DNA of 64,000 nt from Planctomycetes bacterium syqfu (lineage in GTDB: Bacteria; Planctomycetota; Phycisphaerae; Phycisphaerales; Phycisphaeraceae). Below the pieces are notes generated by a model. The model saw only the letters and a program-made list of their open reading frames with translations. It made no database searches and was not told where the DNA came from. The stretch spans positions 4,340,001 through 4,404,000 of the forward strand of contig CP087563.1 of assembly GCA_020974905.1 (NCBI GenBank), given 5' to 3'. A program made the translations under genes and the position numbers. Below, in pieces: positions 5,605-19,859 of this stretch. Numbering within the stretch: position 1 is the stretch's first letter; each line of letters opens with the position of its first letter.

Positions 5605-7503
5605 ATGTGTTTTTCACTCAAATGGATCAAGCCTGCATTATGCAGTCTGGCGGTCACTGCAATCACATTCACAGCAACGGCATGCAACGCACAGTCGATT
5701 GACATTGAAGCGCCCAAACCAACGATCACCTACGAACCACTCACGGACTTTGCGGTCAAGCAGACCATCAACCTCATTGATCATGGCGTGATTCCTGATG
5801 ATGGCAAGGACGATCGCGCAGCCTTGGTCGCTGTCATTGAACAGGTTGCCAAACAGAACATCCCAACCAAACTCGTCTTTCAACAAGGCCAATATCATTT
5901 CAGTTCCATGCCCCGGCGTGTCTACGCGGTGAACATCATCAACATGTCCGATTTGATCATCGATGGGCAGGGTTCGACGATCGTGGTCACCAACCCCGAA
6001 TCGGGTGTGTTTAACGTGCGGCTGTCACAGCGGATCGTCATCAAGAATTTTGCTGGGATTGATTACGATCCCCTGCCGTTCACCCAAGGCACACTCGTTG
6101 CAGTGGACAAAGAAGCCCAGACATTTGATCTGCGTGTGGATGACGGTTTCCCGCTTCCAAGTGAATCCTATTTCAAAAAGTCTCAGCGTTCATGGGGCCA
6201 ACTCAAAGACCGGAACGTGCCGGGCAAACTCAAGGACTTGGCCAACGCCAGCGCGGTGTTTGACTGTACATGGCAAGACATGGGCAATCGAATTTTCCGC
6301 TTCAAGACACCCAAATCAGATTGTTTTGCATGGATGGAAGTCGGTGATAAATACGTGCACCTGGCGCGCACCAACATGGCTCAGAATTTTCATGCAGACG
6401 ATTCACAGGACATCACGGTGATGAACATGACCGTCTACTCCAGCCCGGCTTCGACATTCGCTGCCAACAGTTGTGAACGGTTTAGTGTCATCGGCTCCAA
6501 GGCATTACTCAAGCCCGGACGTTGGCATTCGAACAACGCGGACGCGGTCCACTGCCAACGCAATCGCATCGGCCCATTGATCGAAAACTGCTATTTTGAA
6601 GGCATTATTGACGACCCGGTCAACATCTACTCGGTGCGCTCGCGCATTCTCAAACGCCTTGATGATTACAACCTGCTGGTCAAACAAATGCGGCCACGCA
6701 CGTTCACTCATGACGAATCCATCGGCCAGACACTCACGCTACTCCGTCAACGCACCGGCACGATTCTCGGCACGTACACCATCACGAGTGTGACCGACAT
6801 CGACAAGGCTGTGAAAGTCACCGTCGATGGCAAATTGCCTGAATTGATCATCAATGATGCCAAACACCCGCGCTATGACAATGGCGATGTCGCATTCAGC
6901 AGTCACAATCTCTCACGCAACTTTGTCCTGCGCAACAACACCTTCCGCGTCGGCCAACGTCATTGCATCATCATGGGCGGACATGGTATCGTCGAAGGCA
7001 ACACCTTCGATCAACTCAGTGGCCCAGGCTTATCCATCCTTAATCACAACCGTGGACTCAATGATGCAGAGGGTTTACTCACCGGCGACCTGATCATCCG
7101 TAACAACACCTTCGTCAACTGCGACTTCGGACCCTTCGCCTACGCAACCAAGCAAGCCTATGGCAACTTGTACCTGGGTTCCAAAACATGGGATCAACAA
7201 CCGGGCCAGCAGCAACTCATCGGGCGTGTGCTCATTGAAAACAACACCTTCAAAAACATCCGTAAAGCAGGCATTAATCTCAACAATGCACATGATGTCT
7301 TGATTCGTAACAACACCTTTACCAGTTCCATGGACACGCCGCTGGACCCGGATGTCTCGCATGCAGCGATCATGATGGATAACGTGAGTAAGGTGAAGAT
7401 CACCAGCAACACACTCACCGACCCACGCCCCCGGAAGATCACATTCATCAAGAAGACCGATAGCGTGATGGATATTTACGTGCTGGATAACGCAGTGCAG
7501 TGA
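5605..7503 (+). CDS. Secreted right-handed beta-helix protein, GH110-like
   Basis: A 632-residue exported protein. The signal peptide covers about residues 1-30 (ends TACNAQS). The early GVIPDDGKDDRAAL resembles the N-terminal segment of pectate-lyase-superfamily beta-helices. Later segments with repeated N-N-T-F turns (RNNTF, ENNTF and similar) are typical of parallel beta-helix coils. The central NADAVHC...GPLIENCYFEG..DDPVN pattern is reminiscent of GH110 alpha-1,3-galactosidases, where acidic residues there act in catalysis. It is the last gene of the LacI/prepilin operon, with GGAG about 10 bp upstream. A polysaccharide hydrolase or lyase is likely; the exact substrate is not readable. 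Confidence 0.75.
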   Translation: MCFSLKWIKPALCSLAVTAITFTATACNAQSIDIEAPKPTITYEPLTDFAVKQTINLIDHGVIPDDGKDDRAALVAVIEQVAKQNIPTKLVFQQGQYHFSSMPRRVYAVNIINMSDLIIDGQGSTIVVTNPESGVFNVRLSQRIVIKNFAGIDYDPLPFTQGTLVAVDKEAQTFDLRVDDGFPLPSESYFKKSQRSWGQLKDRNVPGKLKDLANASAVFDCTWQDMGNRIFRFKTPKSDCFAWMEVGDKYVHLARTNMAQNFHADDSQDITVMNMTVYSSPASTFAANSCERFSVIGSKALLKPGRWHSNNADAVHCQRNRIGPLIENCYFEGIIDDPVNIYSVRSRILKRLDDYNLLVKQMRPRTFTHDESIGQTLTLLRQRTGTILGTYTITSVTDIDKAVKVTVDGKLPELIINDAKHPRYDNGDVAFSSHNLSRNFVLRNNTFRVGQRHCIIMGGHGIVEGNTFDQLSGPGLSILNHNRGLNDAEGLLTGDLIIRNNTFVNCDFGPFAYATKQAYGNLYLGSKTWDQQPGQQQLIGRVLIENNTFKNIRKAGINLNNAHDVLIRNNTFTSSMDTPLDPDVSHAAIMMDNVSKVKITSNTLTDPRPRKITFIKKTDSVMDIYVLDNAVQ

Positions 7504-7828: not shown

Positions 7829-10800
7829 TCACTTGCCTGGGGTCCACTCGGCGGGACGGTCGATCTGCGTGGGATCATCAAGCAGGCGACCCAGGGCACC
7901 ATCACGCAGAATGTTCTTCAATGCTTCGGCATCACGCTGAAGCTCGCTGCGAACTGCCGGGTAATACAACTCGGAATAGAAGAAGTATCGGGCAACCTGA
8001 TCGTCAATCAGATACACCTTATCCCGCTTGACCATCGGCATGAGCAGCAGTCGACCCACCGAGAAATTCTTGAGTGTCAGGTCCGTCTCCTTGGCATTGA
8101 GATTCACGGCCTGCTTGATGACGATCGCGCGCTTGAGTCGGATCAGGTCGCGCGGCTGGTGGATCAAAATGGTGTACTGCTGCTGGCCTTCCTTGTTGGG
8201 TTGATTCATTTCCCAAAGCAGGTTCGACCACGTGTTACGATCCGGGCAGTCAACGAGTTTGATCTCGGGCACGGGCTGGGCCAAAAGCTCATCACTGTTG
8301 CGTGCATAGCGGCGAACCGTCCAGGTCAATGCCAACGCGCGATCACCCAATGCCTTAAACAGTGGCCCGTAGTCAGGGTCTTCGGTATCGCCCTTCTCAG
8401 GGCGTCCAGGCTTGGGCAACGCCAGCAGCTCATGCATCATCGGCCAGAGGAATGACACATCCATCTGCGCCTGATCCGGGTCGGTCTGCGGCTCGAAACT
8501 GATCAGACGTTGAATGCTGATTTGATCCTGAATGCGACGACGCTTGGCCACTTCGTAAATCTGGCGGTAAACAATAATGCGTTCACCGGGAATGCGATGA
8601 CGCGAAAAGCGGTCAAACGGATACATGTCAGCAAGCGATGCATTCTTGGAAACCGCCTGATCGGCCAGCGACTGAAGACGCTTGAGTCCGAGGTTTTCAT
8701 GCAAGAACGTCAGGTCGAAAACGTCTTCACTGCGAATGCGGTAAGCATCACGGAAGAGTTCATTGCCAAAGCTGTCAAAAGAGTCTTCATCCTTGGGCAT
8801 GTTTCGACCGGCATACTCATCGGTTGCCAGAACGTAGGGCGTGATGACGATGATCACTTCACGTTTGAGTCGATCCGTTGATGTACTGCGGAAGAGTCCG
8901 CCAATCAGGGGAAGGTCACCGAGAATCGGCGCTTTACTTTGTTCTTCGACATCATCCTGGGCAACCAGACCGCCAATGATAAACGGCGTGTTGTTGGCCA
9001 CGCGGGAATAGGTCTGCACACGTCGCGTTGAGATTTGCGGAGCACGTGCGAGGACCTGGTTGGTCTGCACATCCAGCAGTTCAAGGTCCGCACCGGGGAC
9101 TTCGGAAGAAACAATGCCATCAATCTGCAGGGACACATTTTCACCATCGGAGGTGATGCGCGGTCGCACGTTAAGCAGGATACCAATGGGAATGTACTTG
9201 AAGTTGAAGCTGATCTTATCACTGGAGGAGTTACCCGAGACACTGGTTGCAACGGGAATTTCCTCACCAACGCGAATCGATGCCTGACGATTGTCCAGCG
9301 TGAGAATGCTGGGGCGTGAAAGAATCTTGGCTTTACCTTCGGTGATCAGGGCCTGAATCTGAACGCGGAATTCGCCGAAGATGTCGTGGAGTTCCACATC
9401 AATGGCAGGCGAATCATTGGTTGCAAACAGTGGCAATCGCCCCACTGTCAAGCCTCCCACCGCATTGCGCGGCGAGCGCAAGTCCCATTCAACACCCAAT
9501 TGATCAAGCGAGGTCTTGGAGATTTCAAGCACCATGGCTTCGATGAGAATCTGACGAGCGGGAACGTCAATGGTGTTTTGAATCAGTTCAAGTAAACGGG
9601 CATGCTGCTCGGGACGTGATGCATCGTAGAGCACCATCAACTCCATCAAGGGTGCAGCAGACGTATGGTCCTTGAGGTCCGTTGCGATACTCGGGGTCAT
9701 GGTCAGACCAAACTCACCGCGCTGGGCCTTGGAGCCGCCGACCAAACCGGTGGCATCGGTGCCGGGGACGGCAGCAACCACGGGCAGATTTTTGGGATCG
9801 ACACTTTTGAGCAACGGATCAATGCTTTGATACCCCCCCGGACCCTTGCCACCGTTTTTGTATTCGACAACTTGGTAACCCAGTGTCTTGAGGATGGCCA
9901 TACAGCGATCCGGCTCGACATAACTGAGCGTGATCTTCTCAATGGTCAGGTCGGAAATTTTCAGTGCCTTTTGACGGGCATCCATACTCTTGCGCGAGTC
10001 TTCAAGATTTTTTTTCAGCCCCGTCAAGTCCATCGGCACAAGCTTGTCTTCCTTGTTGATGGTCGCACCCGCTATCCACAGATGCAGTGGCTGACTCTTG
10101 AAAACCTTGTAACCCAACTGTACCAGATGCACACCCTTGTCATCGGTCTTGGCCATCATGCGAACCTGGCGGTAACCCTCCAATGAAGGCATACGCTTGC
10201 GCAACGCCGGTGTCACGCGACCGAAATAACCCTGTGCCGTCAGACGCGATTCGACCACGTCAAGTAACTCCGCCGCCTCCAGGTCATTCATGTCGACCAT
10301 GGGTTCAAAGATGGCGTTGGGTGAACCATCCTGCGCGAAGACGGTGTGATTGAAGCTGGCAAAGCCAAGCGTTCCCAGGAAGACCGCCAGCCATGCGATC
10401 AGGCGCATTGCATGCCAGGACCCGGAACTCGAAGCGGTGTCATCGCGTTGGGTATCCTCTTTGAGATTCGGTTCTGCTTCGGGGGTGTCAGGCGACTTGG
10501 GGTCCTGCTCAAGTGGCGTTGACAACGCTGCAGACGGATCGAATGCGTCGGTGAGTCTGGACTGGAAATCCTGATGTGTGAACATTTGGGGTGGTCCTTG
10601 GTAACTGACGTGACCGTTGTCCAGATGCACAACCATATCCGCATGCCGAAGCAATTCGGGACGATGCGTGATCATGAGAGTGGTCTTGCCGTGCATGAAC
10701 TGGAGGATAGCCGGAACAATCTGAGCCTCGGACGCCGCGTCGATGGATGCGGTGGCTTCGTCGAGGATCAGGACCTGCGGGTTATTGAGCATGGCTCGGG

Positions 10801-12370
10801 TGAGGGTGATACGTTGCTTTTCACCACGCGAAAGCGTGATGCCTTTTTCACCGAGAATGGTGTCATAGCCGTTGGGTAAACGTTGAATAAAGTCATGGGC
10901 GCCGGTTCGCTGGGCGACATCAATGATCTGCTGCATGGATGCATCGGGACGGGCATAGCGGAGATTTTCAAGCACCGAGGAGTTAAACAGGAAACACTCC
11001 TGGAAGACAATGCCCATGTGTTGGCGAAGGTGATTGATGTCGATATCGCGAATGTCCAGGCCGTCAATCTCAATGCGACCGGCAGTGGAATCATGGAACT
11101 TGGGGACCAGACCCACGAGCGTACTCTTGCCTGCACCGGAGGCACCGACGATGGCGCAGACCTGGCCAGGCCGGACTTTGAAACTCACATCCTTGAGCAC
11201 ATGCGTCCCATCGCCGTAGGAAAAGCCCACGTTCTTGAACTGCACATGCCCGCGAATCTCCGGCTTGAGCAGTTGGCGGGTGGGCGTGGTTTCCAACTCA
11301 TCAATGTCGAGCATTTCAAACACACGGTCGACCGACGCGGCAGCGCGGGTGAACTTGGCCAAGCCCCCCATCAAATCGATCACCGTCGGATAGAGCATGC
11401 GGACATAGGTGAAGAACATGATAAAGTCGCCTGGCCGCATCGGGTTTTCTTTTTTGAGCACCTGGTAAGCACCAAAACCGATCAGCGCCACCGTGCCAAC
11501 CCCCACCAGCAGGTCGGTGGCAATTTTCTGAATCACGATATACGTCTTGGATTTGAGCTGGCTCTTGCGCGAAATATCAATCGCGCGGACGAAGGCTTCA
11601 TTCTCACGTTCCTGACCGGCAAAGCCTTTGACGACTTCGGCACCGAGAAACTTTTCAATCAAGTTGCCATGCACAATCGAGAGTTGTTCCGAGGCGTCTT
11701 TACCCGTGCGCTTGATCGGCGCTCTAAACCGGTAATAAACCAACAAGTGAATCGGCAGGACCACCGTACTCACCAATGCCAGCGGCCAATTGACCATGAA
11801 GATGATCACCAGGATACACAGGAACATGAACACCGCCTGGAGCAGCTTGGGCAAATCATCCTGAATGAACTGTTGGATGACATAGCTGTCGTTCATGACC
11901 TTGCTGGAGATCTTGCCCGCATTGTGCTGACGGAAGAAACTGAGGTTGAGTTGCTGGAGATGTTCAAAGAGTTTGTTACGGAGGGTGAAGCAGAAGTTCT
12001 CGCCGATCTGGACCACGGAGTATTTGAAGTGGAAGAACAGACCATTGCGAGCCCCGAAGATGAAGATCAACCCAAAGAGGATCAGCCAGAGAAGCTTGGC
12101 ATTGCCATCGGGATTGACGTCGCTGGGGAAGACATCGTTAAAGAGCAATTTGATGAAGTACGGCGGGGTGAGGTTCACGCCGGTGAGCGCGATCATGACC
12201 AGGAAGACGAACCCGAGCTTGACGAAGTATGGGCGCATGAGCACCAGGACTCGCCTCAGCGAACTGGCGTCCTGGGCAACAAATGGATCCGCTTGATTTG
12301 CCTGTCGTGCGTCGGACATGCCTTTTAAACCGCCAGACCCCTTTTGGTTTGCACTTTTCCCCTCCGACAT
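7829..12370 (-). CDS. ABC exporter fused in frame to a type II/IV-pilus-like secretin
   Basis: One 1513-codon frame without a stop. Residues 40-345 are an MsbA-like six-helix ABC exporter domain. Residues 370-605 are its ATPase: Walker A GASGAGKST (409-417), signature LSRGEKQR (513-520), Walker B VLILDEAT (533-540), H-loop ITHR (567-570). A Pro/Asp/Ser-rich linker (606-652) leads to a hydrophobic segment beginning at Met655 (MRLIAWLAVFLGTLGFASF) and ending HTVFA-QD, which reads like a cleavable signal peptide. Residues 935-1180 carry the secretin core (ILIEAMVLEI, LSRPSILTLDN, RVGEEIPV, GGLVAQDD, PILGDLPLIGGLF, ITPYV), followed by about 330 unrecognised residues. Either a true fusion, a polyprotein cut at 679/680, or two cistrons with a second start at 10408 (no clear ribosome site there). 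Confidence 0.85.
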   Translation of the reverse strand: MSEGKSANQKGSGGLKGMSDARQANQADPFVAQDASSLRRVLVLMRPYFVKLGFVFLVMIALTGVNLTPPYFIKLLFNDVFPSDVNPDGNAKLLWLILFGLIFIFGARNGLFFHFKYSVVQIGENFCFTLRNKLFEHLQQLNLSFFRQHNAGKISSKVMNDSYVIQQFIQDDLPKLLQAVFMFLCILVIIFMVNWPLALVSTVVLPIHLLVYYRFRAPIKRTGKDASEQLSIVHGNLIEKFLGAEVVKGFAGQERENEAFVRAIDISRKSQLKSKTYIVIQKIATDLLVGVGTVALIGFGAYQVLKKENPMRPGDFIMFFTYVRMLYPTVIDLMGGLAKFTRAAASVDRVFEMLDIDELETTPTRQLLKPEIRGHVQFKNVGFSYGDGTHVLKDVSFKVRPGQVCAIVGASGAGKSTLVGLVPKFHDSTAGRIEIDGLDIRDIDINHLRQHMGIVFQECFLFNSSVLENLRYARPDASMQQIIDVAQRTGAHDFIQRLPNGYDTILGEKGITLSRGEKQRITLTRAMLNNPQVLILDEATASIDAASEAQIVPAILQFMHGKTTLMITHRPELLRHADMVVHLDNGHVSYQGPPQMFTHQDFQSRLTDAFDPSAALSTPLEQDPKSPDTPEAEPNLKEDTQRDDTASSSGSWHAMRLIAWLAVFLGTLGFASFNHTVFAQDGSPNAIFEPMVDMNDLEAAELLDVVESRLTAQGYFGRVTPALRKRMPSLEGYRQVRMMAKTDDKGVHLVQLGYKVFKSQPLHLWIAGATINKEDKLVPMDLTGLKKNLEDSRKSMDARQKALKISDLTIEKITLSYVEPDRCMAILKTLGYQVVEYKNGGKGPGGYQSIDPLLKSVDPKNLPVVAAVPGTDATGLVGGSKAQRGEFGLTMTPSIATDLKDHTSAAPLMELMVLYDASRPEQHARLLELIQNTIDVPARQILIEAMVLEISKTSLDQLGVEWDLRSPRNAVGGLTVGRLPLFATNDSPAIDVELHDIFGEFRVQIQALITEGKAKILSRPSILTLDNRQASIRVGEEIPVATSVSGNSSSDKISFNFKYIPIGILLNVRPRITSDGENVSLQIDGIVSSEVPGADLELLDVQTNQVLARAPQISTRRVQTYSRVANNTPFIIGGLVAQDDVEEQSKAPILGDLPLIGGLFRSTSTDRLKREVIIVITPYVLATDEYAGRNMPKDEDSFDSFGNELFRDAYRIRSEDVFDLTFLHENLGLKRLQSLADQAVSKNASLADMYPFDRFSRHRIPGERIIVYRQIYEVAKRRRIQDQISIQRLISFEPQTDPDQAQMDVSFLWPMMHELLALPKPGRPEKGDTEDPDYGPLFKALGDRALALTWTVRRYARNSDELLAQPVPEIKLVDCPDRNTWSNLLWEMNQPNKEGQQQYTILIHQPRDLIRLKRAIVIKQAVNLNAKETDLTLKNFSVGRLLLMPMVKRDKVYLIDDQVARYFFYSELYYPAVRSELQRDAEALKNILRDGALGRLLDDPTQIDRPAEWTPGK

Positions 12371-13573: not shown

Positions 13574-14632
13574 TCACGCAGCCAACATGCGTTCAAGCTT
13601 GTCGGGATACGCAGCCTGTGCGACCGCATCCTCGCGGGTGATCATGCCATTGAAATAGAGGTTGGCAATCGCGCTGTCCAGTGAGGTCATGCCCAGCGCA
13701 CGATTGGTTTCAATCACGTTGGGAATTTCAAACACGCGCCCTTCACGGATCAGGTTCCGCACAGCCGGGGTGCACAACATGATCTCCACCGCAGGCACCA
13801 TACCCGGTTGATCCAGACGTTTAAACAGGGTCTGACTGACCACGGCCTGCAACGTGTTGGCAAGCATCGCTCGAATCTGATTCTGCTGAGACGCAGGATA
13901 CATGTCCACGATACGTTCAACCGTCTGCGATGCGTTAACCGTATGCAATGTCGAAAGCACCAGGTGACCGGTTTCAGCAGCGGTGATCGCAGCGGACGTC
14001 GTCTCAAGATCACGCATTTCGCCCACCAGAATGATGTCGGGGTCCTGACGCAGAACGTGTCGTAAACCCGAGGCAAAGCTCGGCACGTCATCACCAAGTT
14101 CACGTTGCTCGATCATGCACTTGCGGCTGACGAGTTTGTATTCAATAGGGTCTTCGATGGTGATGATATGTTTGGCGTAACGCTGGTTCATCATCTCAAT
14201 CATGGCAGCCAACGTGGTGGACTTACCCGAACCCGTATCGCCGGTGACAAGAATCAAGCCGCGCGGCAAGTACGTCATGCGCGAAACCACCTCGGGCAAG
14301 TTCAACTTATCCAATGCCGGAATCTCTTCCTTGATCGCACGCATGGCAATGGCGATGGAGCGACGCTGCTTATGGGCATTGACACGGAAGCGAGCAATGC
14401 CGGGCACTTCAAAGGAAAAGTCGCTGTCCAGATGTTGGTCAAACGTCTTCATGTGAACGTGACTGGCCATCTGCTCCAAAGCTTGCTGGCAGTCTTCAGG
14501 TGTGAGAATGCCATGACCTTCGACCGGTTCGAGGACGGTTCGGTGACGCATCATCGGTTCATGTCCACTCACCAGGTGCAGGTCAGAAGCACCTGCTTCA
14601 ATGACTTGTTTGATAATTCCCAGAAGGTTCAT
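13574..14632 (-). CDS. pilT: Type IV pilus retraction ATPase PilT
   Basis: A 352-residue secretion/twitching ATPase of the PilT group. The N-terminal PAS-like part has ASDLHL (14-20). Walker A is GDTGSGKST (131-139), the Asp box IEDPIEY, Walker B DPDIILVGEMRD and the His box GHLVLSTLHT. The start at 14632 is preferred because GGAAAG lies nine bases upstream; ATG 14638 is possible, and 14680 adds unrelated residues. Full length for the family. It is expected at the cytoplasmic base of a type IV pilus, powering depolymerisation. No other pilus assembly gene is adjacent, though a prepilin-like protein and a secretin are within 10 kb. Confidence 0.95.
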   Translation of the reverse strand: MNLLGIIKQVIEAGASDLHLVSGHEPMMRHRTVLEPVEGHGILTPEDCQQALEQMASHVHMKTFDQHLDSDFSFEVPGIARFRVNAHKQRRSIAIAMRAIKEEIPALDKLNLPEVVSRMTYLPRGLILVTGDTGSGKSTTLAAMIEMMNQRYAKHIITIEDPIEYKLVSRKCMIEQRELGDDVPSFASGLRHVLRQDPDIILVGEMRDLETTSAAITAAETGHLVLSTLHTVNASQTVERIVDMYPASQQNQIRAMLANTLQAVVSQTLFKRLDQPGMVPAVEIMLCTPAVRNLIREGRVFEIPNVIETNRALGMTSLDSAIANLYFNGMITREDAVAQAAYPDKLERMLAA

Positions 14633-14805
14633 AGACATCACTTTCCGTGTATTTGCTTTTGAGTTTGGCGGACAAAGCAAGTTATCAGGACGTTGGTTTT
14701 AACACACTGCCCTGTGTCCAAAAGATCGACCAAACGGGTGTCGTGAATCAGCGTTTTTCAGCATCAAACCAGCAACGTCCGAGATTTTCACATTTCTAAT
14801 CCCGC

Positions 14806-14824: not shown

Positions 14825-15023
14825 TTACGTAGAGACAAATCATCAATCTGTATGAACCATTGGAAACTGTCGGTTCATTACGACCGATCCACTTCCTGAT
14901 TTCTAAAACAAAAAATTACCCAAATTATCAAGCCTGCGCATTTTCCAAATCGTAGGTTTTGATTCCAGAGCGACGCGGGTTTTCTAACGCAACCGGGAAT
15001 CCTGAGAAGTGGAGATAGTCAGG

Positions 15024-16976
15024 ATGAAAAAGCATAACTCGCAGTTACTGTCAAAAATCGCACGTAAACTTCGCAAGCGTCAGCAACGCAAGCTGTATCG
15101 CCAACGCACACAAACGACAAACCATTTCCAGCCGCTGGAACCCCGCAAGCTACTCAGTGCCGGCGAACCGATGATGATGGCCATGAGCGCACCGCGCATG
15201 GTGGACGCAGGCGTTATCCAGGTTGAAGAGCGTTATCGCGAAGTCGATTCCACATGGTTTGAAGACCTCGCGCCACAAGTCACCGCCAACGTGGACGCAT
15301 CGGTTTCCAGTCTCAACTGGAAAGGTACGGACATCACCACCATCACCGACCAGTGGATCATCCAACTCAACGACAAAGCGCTGGGTGAAGTGCGCTCCGT
15401 GGGTGATACCTTCGACCTGCTGAATCTTGGTGATTACGATGGACAGGTTGTCCGCGGTCTGGGTATGGCAGGTCTGGTTCTCGTTCAAACACAGGCAGAC
15501 ATGGATGCCGATACCTTCATGGACAACATCTATGACAGCGGTTGGGTCGACTACATCCAACCCAATGCCGTCCTTGAAAACCAGGCAACCACGCCCAACG
15601 ACACCAACTTCCTTAACACGTGGGGCCTGAACAACACCGGCCAGTTCACCGGCTCCGTCGCCGATGCAGACATCGATGCACCTGAAGCATGGGACTTGTC
15701 CACCGGTTCATCAAGCATCGTCGTCGGCGTGATCGACACCGGTGTGAAATGGAACCACGTCGACCTGGTCAACAATATGTGGACCAACCCCGGTGAAATC
15801 AACGGCAACGGCATCGACGATGACGGCAACGGTTTCATCGACGACTACTACGGCTATGACTTCGTCAACAACGACGGCAATCCCATGGACGATCATGGGC
15901 ACGGCACACACGTCGCGGGAACCATCGCGGCGGACGGCAACAACGGCAAGGGGGTTGCCGGCGTGTCGTGGAACAGCAAAATCATGGGACTCAAATTCAT
16001 GGGCTCCGACGGTTCAGGTTCAACCAGTGATGCCGTCCGCGCCATCAACTATGCGACCATGATGAAGCAGAACTACGGCGTGAACATTCTCGTCACCTGC
16101 AACTCCTGGGGCGGTGGCGGCTACTCAACCTCGCTGTACAACGCCATCGTTGCCAACAAAAACGCGGGCATGCTCTTCATGGCAGCAGCCGGTAACGACT
16201 CCACCAACAACGACAGCCTGCCCCACTATCCGTCGAATTACAACGTGGAAAACGTTATCTCCGTGGCATCCACCGATTGGGCGGACAATCTCTCAAGTTT
16301 CTCCAACTACGGTGCAACCTCCGTTGACATCGCAGCACCGGGTTCCAACATTTACTCAACCACCTACAACGGCGGTTACGGGTACATGTCCGGCACGTCC
16401 ATGGCAACTCCGCAGGTCGCCGGACTCGCAGCACTGGCATGGTCCTATGACCAAACCGCAACCTGGCAGGAAATCAAGGCAGCCATCCTCGACAACGGCG
16501 ATACCCTTGCCTCCCTCAGTGGTAAAGTCTCAACCGGTAAACGCATCAATGCCTACAACACGCTCAACGCGCTCTCCGAATCAAATGACCCCAATCTGGA
16601 AGTCTTATACGGAGCTTCGCCCATCAGTTCCAATGAGACCATTGACTTTGGCACCGGTGCTACCGATTGGGAATCCATGATGGATTACATGGACATCCAG
16701 TTCTACATGACCAACACCATCGCCGATAGTACGCTCGTGGTCACCAGTGTGACCGTTGATGGCGGTTTTGAGATTGTGCAGGATGCGACCGACAAAGTCC
16801 TGGGGCAATATGAAGACTCATGGTTCACCGTTCGCCTGCCTACAGATACAGCTGGCACGTACAACGGGACCGTCACCATCACGACCAATGATCCTGACAC
16901 CCCCGCTTTCACATTCAAGGTCACCGGTGTCGTTGAACAGGTGGACACCCCGGCATTTGGTGTACTTTACAAATGA
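15024..16976 (+). CDS. S8 subtilisin-like protease with LEPR-x-LL motif (5' part of interrupted gene)
   Basis: 650 residues. A long basic N-terminus leads to LEPRKLLS (38-45), the LEPR-x-LL motif seen at the start of large planctomycete surface proteins. The subtilase domain (about 195-520) keeps the full triad: Asp238 in VIDTG, His293 in HGTHVAG, Ser459 in GTSMATP, with Asn391 as oxyanion residue. NGNGIDDDGNGFIDD is a probable calcium loop. The start at 15024 has GGAGA eight bases upstream; an in-frame GTG at 15009 lies before that site. The last 110 residues are a beta-sandwich repeat cut short by TGA at 16974. The same repeat family continues in the same frame from 17001, so this is probably one broken gene of about 1611 codons. 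Confidence 0.85.
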   Translation: MKKHNSQLLSKIARKLRKRQQRKLYRQRTQTTNHFQPLEPRKLLSAGEPMMMAMSAPRMVDAGVIQVEERYREVDSTWFEDLAPQVTANVDASVSSLNWKGTDITTITDQWIIQLNDKALGEVRSVGDTFDLLNLGDYDGQVVRGLGMAGLVLVQTQADMDADTFMDNIYDSGWVDYIQPNAVLENQATTPNDTNFLNTWGLNNTGQFTGSVADADIDAPEAWDLSTGSSSIVVGVIDTGVKWNHVDLVNNMWTNPGEINGNGIDDDGNGFIDDYYGYDFVNNDGNPMDDHGHGTHVAGTIAADGNNGKGVAGVSWNSKIMGLKFMGSDGSGSTSDAVRAINYATMMKQNYGVNILVTCNSWGGGGYSTSLYNAIVANKNAGMLFMAAAGNDSTNNDSLPHYPSNYNVENVISVASTDWADNLSSFSNYGATSVDIAAPGSNIYSTTYNGGYGYMSGTSMATPQVAGLAALAWSYDQTATWQEIKAAILDNGDTLASLSGKVSTGKRINAYNTLNALSESNDPNLEVLYGASPISSNETIDFGTGATDWESMMDYMDIQFYMTNTIADSTLVVTSVTVDGGFEIVQDATDKVLGQYEDSWFTVRLPTDTAGTYNGTVTITTNDPDTPAFTFKVTGVVEQVDTPAFGVLYK

Positions 16977-17000
16977 TCCTGTGGTGAACACCTTGCAACG

Positions 17001-19859
17001 ATGTACAGCGTCGACGCACACAACATCAATGATTCGGCTGACTATACTTTCAGACTTGCAAACACCGGCTCATTGCCCTTAACCGTCAACTCCATCGACT
17101 GGGACACAGTCAAGTTTCCCGGCGGCTGGACCATGATCGAAGGCTTGGATACAACCATCGCTGGTGGAAGTTCAGACACATTTACCGTGCGAATGGACAC
17201 CAGCACGTCTGGCACGAAAAATTCCTACTTCATCATCTACACATCGCACCAACCCATTTACGTTGAGCTCTACGGCCTCGTCAATGAACCAGGCACGCCA
17301 GAAGTCGCTGTGGCCGACCCCATTGGCAATGACATCACCGATGGCTCAAATACCGCAGTGAATCTGGGTAGTAAATCTCAAGGAACCAACTTCCAAAAAA
17401 CCTTTACCATAACCAACACAGGTAATGATGTACTGACACTCAGTAATCTGACAGTAACAGGCGATTTCACGACCAATACCAACCTGCCGGCATCACTGGC
17501 AGCGGGCGCATCCACAACCTTTACCGTCAAGACAGACACCACATCAAGCGGAGCAAAAAGCGGTAGTGTTTCGTTTAATTCAAACGACTCAGACGAAGCA
17601 ACATTCAATTTCCTGCTCGAAGCGACCGTTACTGATGCACCTGTCCCGCAGGAAGTCAAAGTCACCTACTCCGGCGGTGAAATCACCGACGGTCAAATGG
17701 CTGCAATCGACTTTGGTGATCTGAACTACGGCGATAATGCCCCGGAAATCACCTTCACCGTCAGCAACCTCGGTGACCAGAAACTTACAACATCCGGCCT
17801 GAACGCCGGCAGTGGTTTCACCATCGTCGAAGGTCTGAATGCAAACATCGATGCAGGCGAAAGCGACACCTTCACCGTCCGCATGGTCACCAACGCTGCA
17901 GGACAGAAGAATGCAACCGTCACCTTCTACACCAATGACGAAGACGAAGCAACTTTCAACTTCGATGTCACTGGCTCCGTCGCAGCACCGCCCAACGGCA
18001 TTGACCTGTCCGTGGCTTGGGCGGAGGATGCCGACGAATACATCATCCCAGGCAAGAAGTCCAAAGTCCTTGTCGATGTCACCAACAACGGCACCATCGC
18101 CATGTCCGACGCCGTCACCATTAACGTGTATGGCAACACCACCAACACACTCGATGGCGATCAAGTCCTCTTGGGAACCGTCACCAAAACCCTGACGCTC
18201 AAGCCGGACCAAAGCAAAACCAACCGCGTGGTCGTTGAACTGGATAGCTCCATTCCTGCTGATGATTACTATCTCTTTGCAGTCGTCGATCCCGATGACA
18301 CCATCAGTGAAGGCAATGAAAACAACAACACCGCCGTCACCGATGTCACCACCGAAATCGCATGGAAATTCGGTGACCTTGGCGATGGCAAGAAGACCAC
18401 CCTTAAACTCGAAGACGCTGACGGATCACTGGTCCAATTCAGCCTGTCGGGCAAAGGTGTCGGCGAAGTCGTCGAGAATCTTGATGGCTCCTGGAGCGTC
18501 TTTATCACAGGCACCACCAACTCCTCGAAGGTCAGTATCCGCGGTAAAGGTGGCGACGGACGCGTTGAACTCCAGGACCTGATCATCGGTGATCCTGATG
18601 ATGCAAATGATAATACCGTCATCGGGCAATTCGCTGGCAAAAACGTTGATATCAACGGCGGTGACTTCATCGTCACAGGCACCATCCAGAAACTCGTCCT
18701 CGGCGATATCATCGACAGTACCATGACATTCGGTGATTCCTATGGACGTGGTACAGATGTCACGCTTGAGCAACTCTCAGACGTCACCATCAACGCTGAG
18801 ACTGGCTTTAACAAGTTCACCATCGTCGATTGGAACGACAATGATGCCACAGCAGATGAGTTCAATGCCTTCTGGGTGAACAAACTCACTTCCAAAGGCT
18901 CCAAAAAGCTGAGTATTAATGGTGATTTTCAAACGAATCTCACCTTGTCCGGCGAAGGTGCAGGTCGCTATACCATCGACACCATGGTCGTCAAAGGCGC
19001 GATGGATGGCCAAAGCATCGACGTGACCGGCAATGTCAAACTCCTGAAAATCGATAGCGCTGAAGATACGGATATCAACATCATCGGTGATGTCGACAAA
19101 CTCATTCTCGGGCACATGCTCAATGGTTCTTTGACGGCCAACAGCATCGATAAAATGGCGACGAGTATCGCTAGTAATGCTGTAGGCAGTACCGGTGATT
19201 TCACTGCTGACGTCACCATCAACGGCAGCAAGTCCGCCAAATATTCACTGAAAACCGTCAGCATCAAAGGTGATCTGAGTAATGCCAACTGGGATGTGGC
19301 AGGCCGTATTGGATCACTCGTTGCCAAAGGTGACACCGCAGGTTTGACCTTAAGCGTCGTCGATGACAGTGATTTGAGAATTGATGCAGCGCTTGAAAAA
19401 CTTGTCCTCAAAGATGTCACCACCACCGACGTCTCCGTCGAAGGTAATATCGATCTGGTCAAAGCAGCCAACTGGACGGGTGGCAGCATTACCGCAGAAG
19501 CCATCACCGTCGTCAAAGTCGATGGCACCATGACCGGTGATATCACGCTTGCCGGCAACGAAGCTCGCGGTGATGTTCTCAAATCCATGACGGTCAAAGG
19601 TGATGTCAATAATGTCGATTGGGACATGGTCGGACAGGTTGGCAAAGTCCAACTCAACGGCACCGTCACCGGAATGCAACTTGATGTAATCGATGGCGAT
19701 GTCCGCGGCCAGGAAGCTTCCATTGAAAAACTCGTCTTCTCTGATGTCGCTTCAGGTGATGTCACCGTGGAAGGTCAAATTGAGTTTGTCAAAGCGGACA
19801 GCTGGACCAACGGTTCATTGACGGCAGAAGATATTCTTAAATCAAGTCTGCCTCAGTAA
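17001..19859 (+). CDS. Giant surface-protein repeat region (3' part of interrupted protease gene)
   Basis: 952 residues with no signal peptide and no ribosome site, starting in the middle of a beta-sandwich repeat. Residues 1-330 hold about three choice-of-anchor/DUF1573-like units (pattern: ...F-TITNTGND-L-L...). A CARDB-like domain follows (about 335-455, ending DDTISEGNENNNTA). The remaining 500 residues are repetitive beta-solenoid-like units with recurring V-KGD-x-N-x-x-WD and EKLVLKDV patterns. The frame matches that of the upstream protease part, and the gap is 24 bp. The C-terminus ends abruptly (ILKSSLPQ) without a sorting signal and overlaps the 3' end of ribD by 18 bp. Confidence 0.7.
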   Translation: MYSVDAHNINDSADYTFRLANTGSLPLTVNSIDWDTVKFPGGWTMIEGLDTTIAGGSSDTFTVRMDTSTSGTKNSYFIIYTSHQPIYVELYGLVNEPGTPEVAVADPIGNDITDGSNTAVNLGSKSQGTNFQKTFTITNTGNDVLTLSNLTVTGDFTTNTNLPASLAAGASTTFTVKTDTTSSGAKSGSVSFNSNDSDEATFNFLLEATVTDAPVPQEVKVTYSGGEITDGQMAAIDFGDLNYGDNAPEITFTVSNLGDQKLTTSGLNAGSGFTIVEGLNANIDAGESDTFTVRMVTNAAGQKNATVTFYTNDEDEATFNFDVTGSVAAPPNGIDLSVAWAEDADEYIIPGKKSKVLVDVTNNGTIAMSDAVTINVYGNTTNTLDGDQVLLGTVTKTLTLKPDQSKTNRVVVELDSSIPADDYYLFAVVDPDDTISEGNENNNTAVTDVTTEIAWKFGDLGDGKKTTLKLEDADGSLVQFSLSGKGVGEVVENLDGSWSVFITGTTNSSKVSIRGKGGDGRVELQDLIIGDPDDANDNTVIGQFAGKNVDINGGDFIVTGTIQKLVLGDIIDSTMTFGDSYGRGTDVTLEQLSDVTINAETGFNKFTIVDWNDNDATADEFNAFWVNKLTSKGSKKLSINGDFQTNLTLSGEGAGRYTIDTMVVKGAMDGQSIDVTGNVKLLKIDSAEDTDINIIGDVDKLILGHMLNGSLTANSIDKMATSIASNAVGSTGDFTADVTINGSKSAKYSLKTVSIKGDLSNANWDVAGRIGSLVAKGDTAGLTLSVVDDSDLRIDAALEKLVLKDVTTTDVSVEGNIDLVKAANWTGGSITAEAITVVKVDGTMTGDITLAGNEARGDVLKSMTVKGDVNNVDWDMVGQVGKVQLNGTVTGMQLDVIDGDVRGQEASIEKLVFSDVASGDVTVEGQIEFVKADSWTNGSLTAEDILKSSLPQ

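Follow-up and report, generated by a model that had tools for sequence, protein, structure and literature searches.

A conserved Phycisphaerales gene joins an ABC exporter to a secretin and probably encodes a polyprotein cut by signal peptidase

We report that a single gene of Planctomycetes bacterium syqfu encodes an ABC exporter and a secretin in one uninterrupted reading frame. The window analyzed is a stretch of 64,000 nucleotides (positions 4340001-4404000 of the genome G000, on a single 7.38 Mb contig). The joined frame occupies 7829..12370 of its minus strand, as do all parts of the gene given below: 1513 codons from an ATG start, with an MsbA/Sav1866-type exporter at residues 1-600 and a GspD-like secretin at residues 680-1513. 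The gene is real and conserved; its parts are ordinary and its architecture is unusual. The reading with the best support is a polyprotein cleaved by signal peptidase, given the conserved types of signal at the join and a linker that is coding. We infer cleavage, membrane positions and shared function: signal peptidase I or II probably releases the secretin half, the exporter would keep the spent signal as a seventh helix, and the products probably serve one export route.

An earlier note, made from the DNA letters, had described an exporter ATPase and a secretin in one frame, and Pfam finds the domains of both above curated cut-offs in the 1513-residue product. The transmembrane domain of the exporter, ABC_membrane (PF00664; residues 53-326, 11393..12214, E 1.2e-38), is followed by its ATPase domain, ABC_tran (PF00005; residues 392-541, 10748..11197, E 3.4e-32). 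The latter is intact, as the note had it, with Walker A (GASGAGKST), the LSRGE signature, Walker B and ITH all present, and its motif columns can be followed across 69 relatives: in 69/69 exporter halves, the third residue of the ABC signature (residues 513-517 in the protein of the window) is R, H or Q and not the usual Gly. In length, domains and motifs this is a half-size exporter like MsbA, Sav1866 and TM_0288, and its PDB matches are chains of P-glycoprotein, Sav1866, TM_0288 and MsbA; the AlphaFold2 model is weak (mean pLDDT 52.9) and has long helices in the transmembrane domain. It differs from MsbA, Sav1866 and TM_0288 in the signature residue, in the secretin behind it and in scoring below the curated cut-off of the MsbA lipid A exporter model TIGR02203 (348.7 bits vs 602). 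The pairing of an ABC exporter with an outer-membrane channel is also reminiscent of type I secretion, with its ABC exporter, adaptor and TolC. Here, however, the channel is a secretin, the exporter half reaches neither of two type I models (TIGR03375, 309.9 vs 693.1; TIGR01846, 294.6 vs 725.55), a Pfam search of the joined protein found no peptidase domain, and no adaptor recurs among the neighbors of 39 loci.

The predicted mature secretin (residues 680-1513, 7832..10333) belongs to the PF00263 superfamily, scoring 145.6 bits against a gathering score of 27.5, with its core at residues 1007-1181 (8828..9352, E 1.4e-42). Like the GspD of type II secretion, it has a secretin core whose closest solved structures are GspD chains (best E 2.6e-28), followed by PilQ, and TIGR02517 (GspD) is its best NCBIfam model. 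Unlike GspD, it stays below the cut-off of that equivalog model (177.5 bits vs 351.35, over profile positions 319-594 only), has an N-terminal region with no Pfam match at E 1 (residues 680-940) and carries a long C-terminal tail. The tail measures 332 residues behind the Pfam core (7832..8827), close to the 330 or so that the earlier note had counted; it forms conserved blocks across 76 secretins and has no Pfam match above cut-off, its single match being at E 0.15. The AlphaFold2 model of the mature secretin, built on 7 sequences, is poor (mean pLDDT 40.6) and usable for the first ~120 residues only, where an N-terminal domain (9971..10333) appears as a block of pLDDT 71-87 over mature residues 1-110. 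Two structural likenesses of this part were set aside: the best Foldseek match (E 0.05), which is the N-terminal domain of BamC, and a VIA likeness (Z 7.5) that was tied with unrelated folds. In two relatives, L034 (G005) and L061, this first domain is doubled in tandem within the joined protein. The genome itself holds nine secretin loci over the Pfam cut-off, among which the joined-gene secretin scores second. More distant secretins, from six genomes (G522, G440, G487, G552, G566 and G593), align to the query only as far as residue 540 of 833, and the stretches fetched around them hold no relative of the exporter at E 1e-5.

The joined frame recurs well beyond this genome. The earlier note had proposed looking for it in relatives, and it is found in 4/4 genomes of the genus searched and in 41 of the 78 genomes classified, the joined ones spanning 20 genera and six families of the order; an assembly or frameshift artifact is therefore ruled out. 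The secretin half was detected in 70/400 genomes of the order (E 1e-60 or better) and in 31/397 genomes of the class (1e-40), and the exporter half in 25/397 genomes of the class (1e-110). In all, 80 loci from 78 genomes were classified. Exporter and secretin are joined or neighboring in 68 of the 78: besides the 41 joined genomes, separate neighboring genes occur at 24 loci with the exporter before the secretin and at two in the opposite order (G054, and G690 outside the class), and G052 completes the count. The last (L047) has an exporter joined to the secretin with a frame break midway through the exporter, near 7262 of a 2.86 Mb contig, which may reflect faulty sequencing or decay of the exporter. 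Nine loci carry the secretin only, a status that is unsure for five of them, which lie at contig ends (G380, G391, G715 and G702) or have an exporter on another contig (G028); three loci from two genomes carry the exporter only. Within the order, the 70 genomes divide into 41 joined, 21 + 1 separate, G052, five secretin only and one unclassified, and none of the classified loci beyond the order has a joined frame. G036 counts as joined by a frame cut at a contig end; its second fragment, G023 and G417 were fetched and left unclassified. The named relatives are six Phycisphaeraceae or Phycisphaerales MAGs, one labelled Planctomycetota only. Two-gene relatives had been named beforehand as a result that would speak against the fusion; the 24 loci show that a fusion is not needed, and leave the fusion itself standing.

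Beyond the pair, no operon partner was found in more than five genomes when 39 loci were compared. The comparison clustered the neighbors, and its quick choice of open reading frames retained long antisense ones where the G+C content was high; the five-genome cluster holds such frames. As to a link with type II secretion, a PilT-like T2SSE ATPase recognized by Pfam lies upstream of the joined gene in the window (13574-14680, minus strand); it is not a recurrent neighbor, and no neighbor recurs widely among the clustered, not individually annotated genes of the 39 loci. Farther along, 15009-19859 of the plus strand contains a protease-like stretch (15009-16976) and a repeat-rich one (17001-19859) in the same reading frame, with one stop and eight codons between them; a stop codon may have split a single gene here.

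Quick trees of the secretin (76 rows) and of the exporter (69 rows), in which long branches were flagged, show the same main division. Clade A comprises families f1 and f6, and clade B families f2-f5, plus f20 and f23 in the secretin tree; f10 and G690 fall outside. Outside the order, f10, G690 and G534 have separate genes, as do three lineages within it (genus g9; g74 with g85; G054). The fewest changes between joined and separate states number four on the tree of each half when secretin-only rows are left out, and seven on the secretin tree if these are counted as not joined. Because separate genes lie outside the order, the simplest story would be that the genes were joined once, at the root of the order, and came apart again in g9, g74/g85 and G054. 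In g74, the best start of the secretin overlaps the stop of the exporter by 1 or 4 bases at 8/14 loci, so joined and overlapping states would be one small step apart. The pair itself seems older than the fusion, since G534, outside the class, has a related exporter (33% identity; L122, 4835-6616) followed by a separate secretin gene.

The evidence for processing lies at the join. The earlier note had pointed to a signal-peptide-like stretch ending VFA-QD, and this stretch is there: a putative embedded signal peptide spans residues 655-679 (10334..10408), giving Q680 (10333) as a possible mature N-terminus. A hydrophobic segment occupies the join in 41/41 joined frames, the best 15-mer between exporter and secretin having a Kyte-Doolittle mean of 1.69-2.76. 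In 36/41 frames no more than 5% of shuffled versions of the linker reach this peak, and in the other five 8-25% do. What follows the segment depends on the clade. Scored with a tight AXA pattern and against controls in which the residues behind the segment were shuffled, clade A joined frames have AXA in 17/17 (10.4 expected) and a lipobox-like cysteine in 0/17 (0.2 expected), while clade B frames have the cysteine in 24/24 (2.4 expected) and AXA in just 2/24 (11.2 expected). A looser AXA pattern also matched 12/24 clade B frames, often off the sites chosen by eye, and was replaced. The lipobox sorts perfectly by clade; AXA alone is weak evidence, and exact sites in clade A were picked by eye. 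Q often follows these by-eye sites (QD, QN, QE, QQ), which brings to mind the Q rule reportedly studied in Bacteroidetes.

The lipobox-like cysteine thus belongs to the clade B relatives and not to the gene of the window. When clade B sequences are anchored on it, the cysteine is present in 25/25 joined loci (G052 included) and preceded by G in 19/25; the other clade B secretins have it in 21/22, preceded by G in 16/22, with G223 scored as having no lipobox because the cysteine in its scan window accompanies an AXA-type appearance. We consider this lipobox relaxed, as the -3 residue is often F. The stretch behind the cysteine is alike in joined and separate proteins (IESARASGGLL and LETPQISGGSM, a likeness drawn partly by eye), a strict pattern matching 17/25 joined and 7/22 other clade B loci. 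Secretins from loci that are not joined carry the same kind of signal near their N-terminus (15 loci among those listed).

Upstream of the signal, the two halves are connected by a variable hydrophilic linker (residues 601-654, 10409..10570). Across 40 linkers (G036 left out), 5044 codons hold no in-frame stop, against 151 and 211 stops in the other two frames; this count is partly circular, because loci were called joined by the absence of a stop, so we rely on omega instead. Over the whole linker, omega was 0.14-0.64 in the eight of 13 close-relative pairs with finite values, against 0.02-0.17 in the flanks. That region also covered the signal and some of the mature protein, hence a repeat on the linker upstream of the signal only, which gave 0.03-0.54, all below 1, in nine of 13 pairs (two saturated, two too short). 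Short upstream linkers contribute few changes (14 codons for G730-G940, 8 for G887-G823), and same-genus pairs are not independent; genus pairs gave 0.25, 0.34 and 0.40 (three of five finite). The linker is, on this sequence comparison, read as protein and loosely constrained.

These features suggest the following course of events. Ribosomes would make a single chain, whose first 600 residues would insert as an MsbA/Sav1866-type exporter subunit. The ATPase domain of such exporters is cytoplasmic; a hydrophobic segment that follows it therefore has to traverse the membrane outward, which would place the rest in the periplasm, as a secretin needs. Residues 655-679 would act as an internal signal peptide whose N-terminus stays on the inner side, everything behind it being exported. 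Signal peptidase I would then cut after VFA, and in the sister clade signal peptidase II would cut and the cysteine would be lipidated. Exporters work as dimers and secretins as rings of 12-15 subunits, a mismatch that the earlier note had found surprising in a fusion; once cut, the parts would separate and the puzzle would be solved. In the outer membrane the freed secretin would assemble into a ring of its own; the exporter would dimerize, retaining the spent signal as an extra helix. Substrate would cross the inner membrane through the exporter and leave through the secretin.

Three other explanations have to be weighed. The working secretin could come from its own internal start, the joined chain being a by-product, and the gene of the window lends itself to this: an ATG at residue 655 (10406..10408) opens the signal, with a weak Shine-Dalgarno energy of -3.7. 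The same ATG is present in G001 and one nearby in G003; in genus g65 an ATG (MKHP) precedes the signal in 13/13 joined frames, so an internal start could add secretin there, and the secretins of relatives with separate genes begin with the signal that joined proteins carry inside. The start at 10408 that the earlier note had suggested is thus possible in this genome. It is, however, not conserved even in the genus, G002 being one of the four of 41 joined frames (with G026, G058 and G964) that have no ATG, GTG or TTG in the interval from 45 codons ahead of the first residue of the hydrophobic segment to 3 codons past it. On average, the best Shine-Dalgarno energy, uncalibrated for the Shine-Dalgarno use of these bacteria, is -3.7 for joined frames (41, those with no start set to 0) against -6.3 for separate (25) and -6.7 for secretin-only genes (6), in a table that omits G073, G715, G702 and G223. 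The linker upstream of the signal is constrained at the protein level, and since no stop divides the halves, ribosomes making the exporter run on into the secretin in any case. We consider an internal start unlikely as the main source of secretin.

The chain could instead stay whole, with the junction as an uncut anchor that tethers the secretin ring to the exporter across the envelope, the new kind of channel imagined in the earlier note. A helix predicted with low confidence at residues 652-668 would be consistent with an anchor, and such a channel is a possible, if the least supported, reading of the join. A permanent tether is nonetheless hard to reconcile with a join that carries a conserved candidate processing site, of two kinds sorted by clade, with lipoprotein-like N-termini common to joined and separate secretins, with the mismatch of dimer and 12-15-mer, and with relatives that keep the genes separate in either order (including the three lineages within the order) or have the secretin but not this exporter; we judge it very improbable. 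A last explanation is that joining only fixes equal, co-located synthesis of two proteins at work in unrelated processes. Five genomes have the secretin and no close relative of the exporter (G024, G226, G298, G223 and G380). Two of these, G024 (L041) and G226 (L064), of genus g22 in clade A, have a secretin with its own signal and exporters that are only 27-32% paralogues; in G226, on one contig and 97% complete, the secretin is kept although the best exporter match is a 32% paralogue. Conversely, G419 has two such exporters and only distant secretins (32-33%), and the 39 loci compared share no other neighbor beyond small groups. Yet the two genes are joined or adjacent in 68 of the 78 genomes and in G534, and two such lineages lie outside the class, which makes unrelated roles rather doubtful. 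From the pairing alone, in those 68 genomes, we infer a shared export route, and a precursor cleaved by signal peptidase, one of the options raised in the earlier note, is the reading that we retain.

A comparable gene exists in bacteria: fbcH of Bradyrhizobium encodes a cytochrome b/c1 polyprotein that is cut in two via an internal signal peptide. On its sequence features, the joined gene would be a polyprotein of this kind, with a signal-like segment and a putative cut site standing between the two proteins encoded in its single frame; in both, a multi-pass membrane protein comes first and an exported protein that carries an internal signal peptide comes second. The partners in FbcH are respiratory and share one membrane, whereas exporter and secretin would be expected in two, and the clade B joined frames use a lipobox-like site. 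Excerpts of PMC12456017 name fbcH as a cytochrome b/c1 subunit. Among the literature matches listed, including the excerpted texts of PMC9239104, PMC8277102 and PMC12456017, we found no description of an ABC exporter-secretin fusion or pair. We tentatively propose that the gene may represent an undescribed two-membrane export system of Planctomycetota, in which an MsbA-like exporter and a dedicated secretin exit come from one precursor with no adaptor; in one clade a lipoprotein would be excised from within a polytopic membrane protein, and some of the chains may escape cleavage and tether ring to pump.

If cleavage does take place, this would be an unusual bacterial polyprotein kept over an order, in which the same join would be handled as an ordinary signal peptide in one clade and would yield a lipoprotein in the other. 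It would also raise the question of whether signal peptidases and the enzymes of lipoprotein processing can use a signal preceded by an entire ABC transporter. The pairing of exporter and secretin, whether joined, neighboring or reversed, points to a secretin that serves an ABC pump and not type II or pilus machinery, a role that would be new for secretins.
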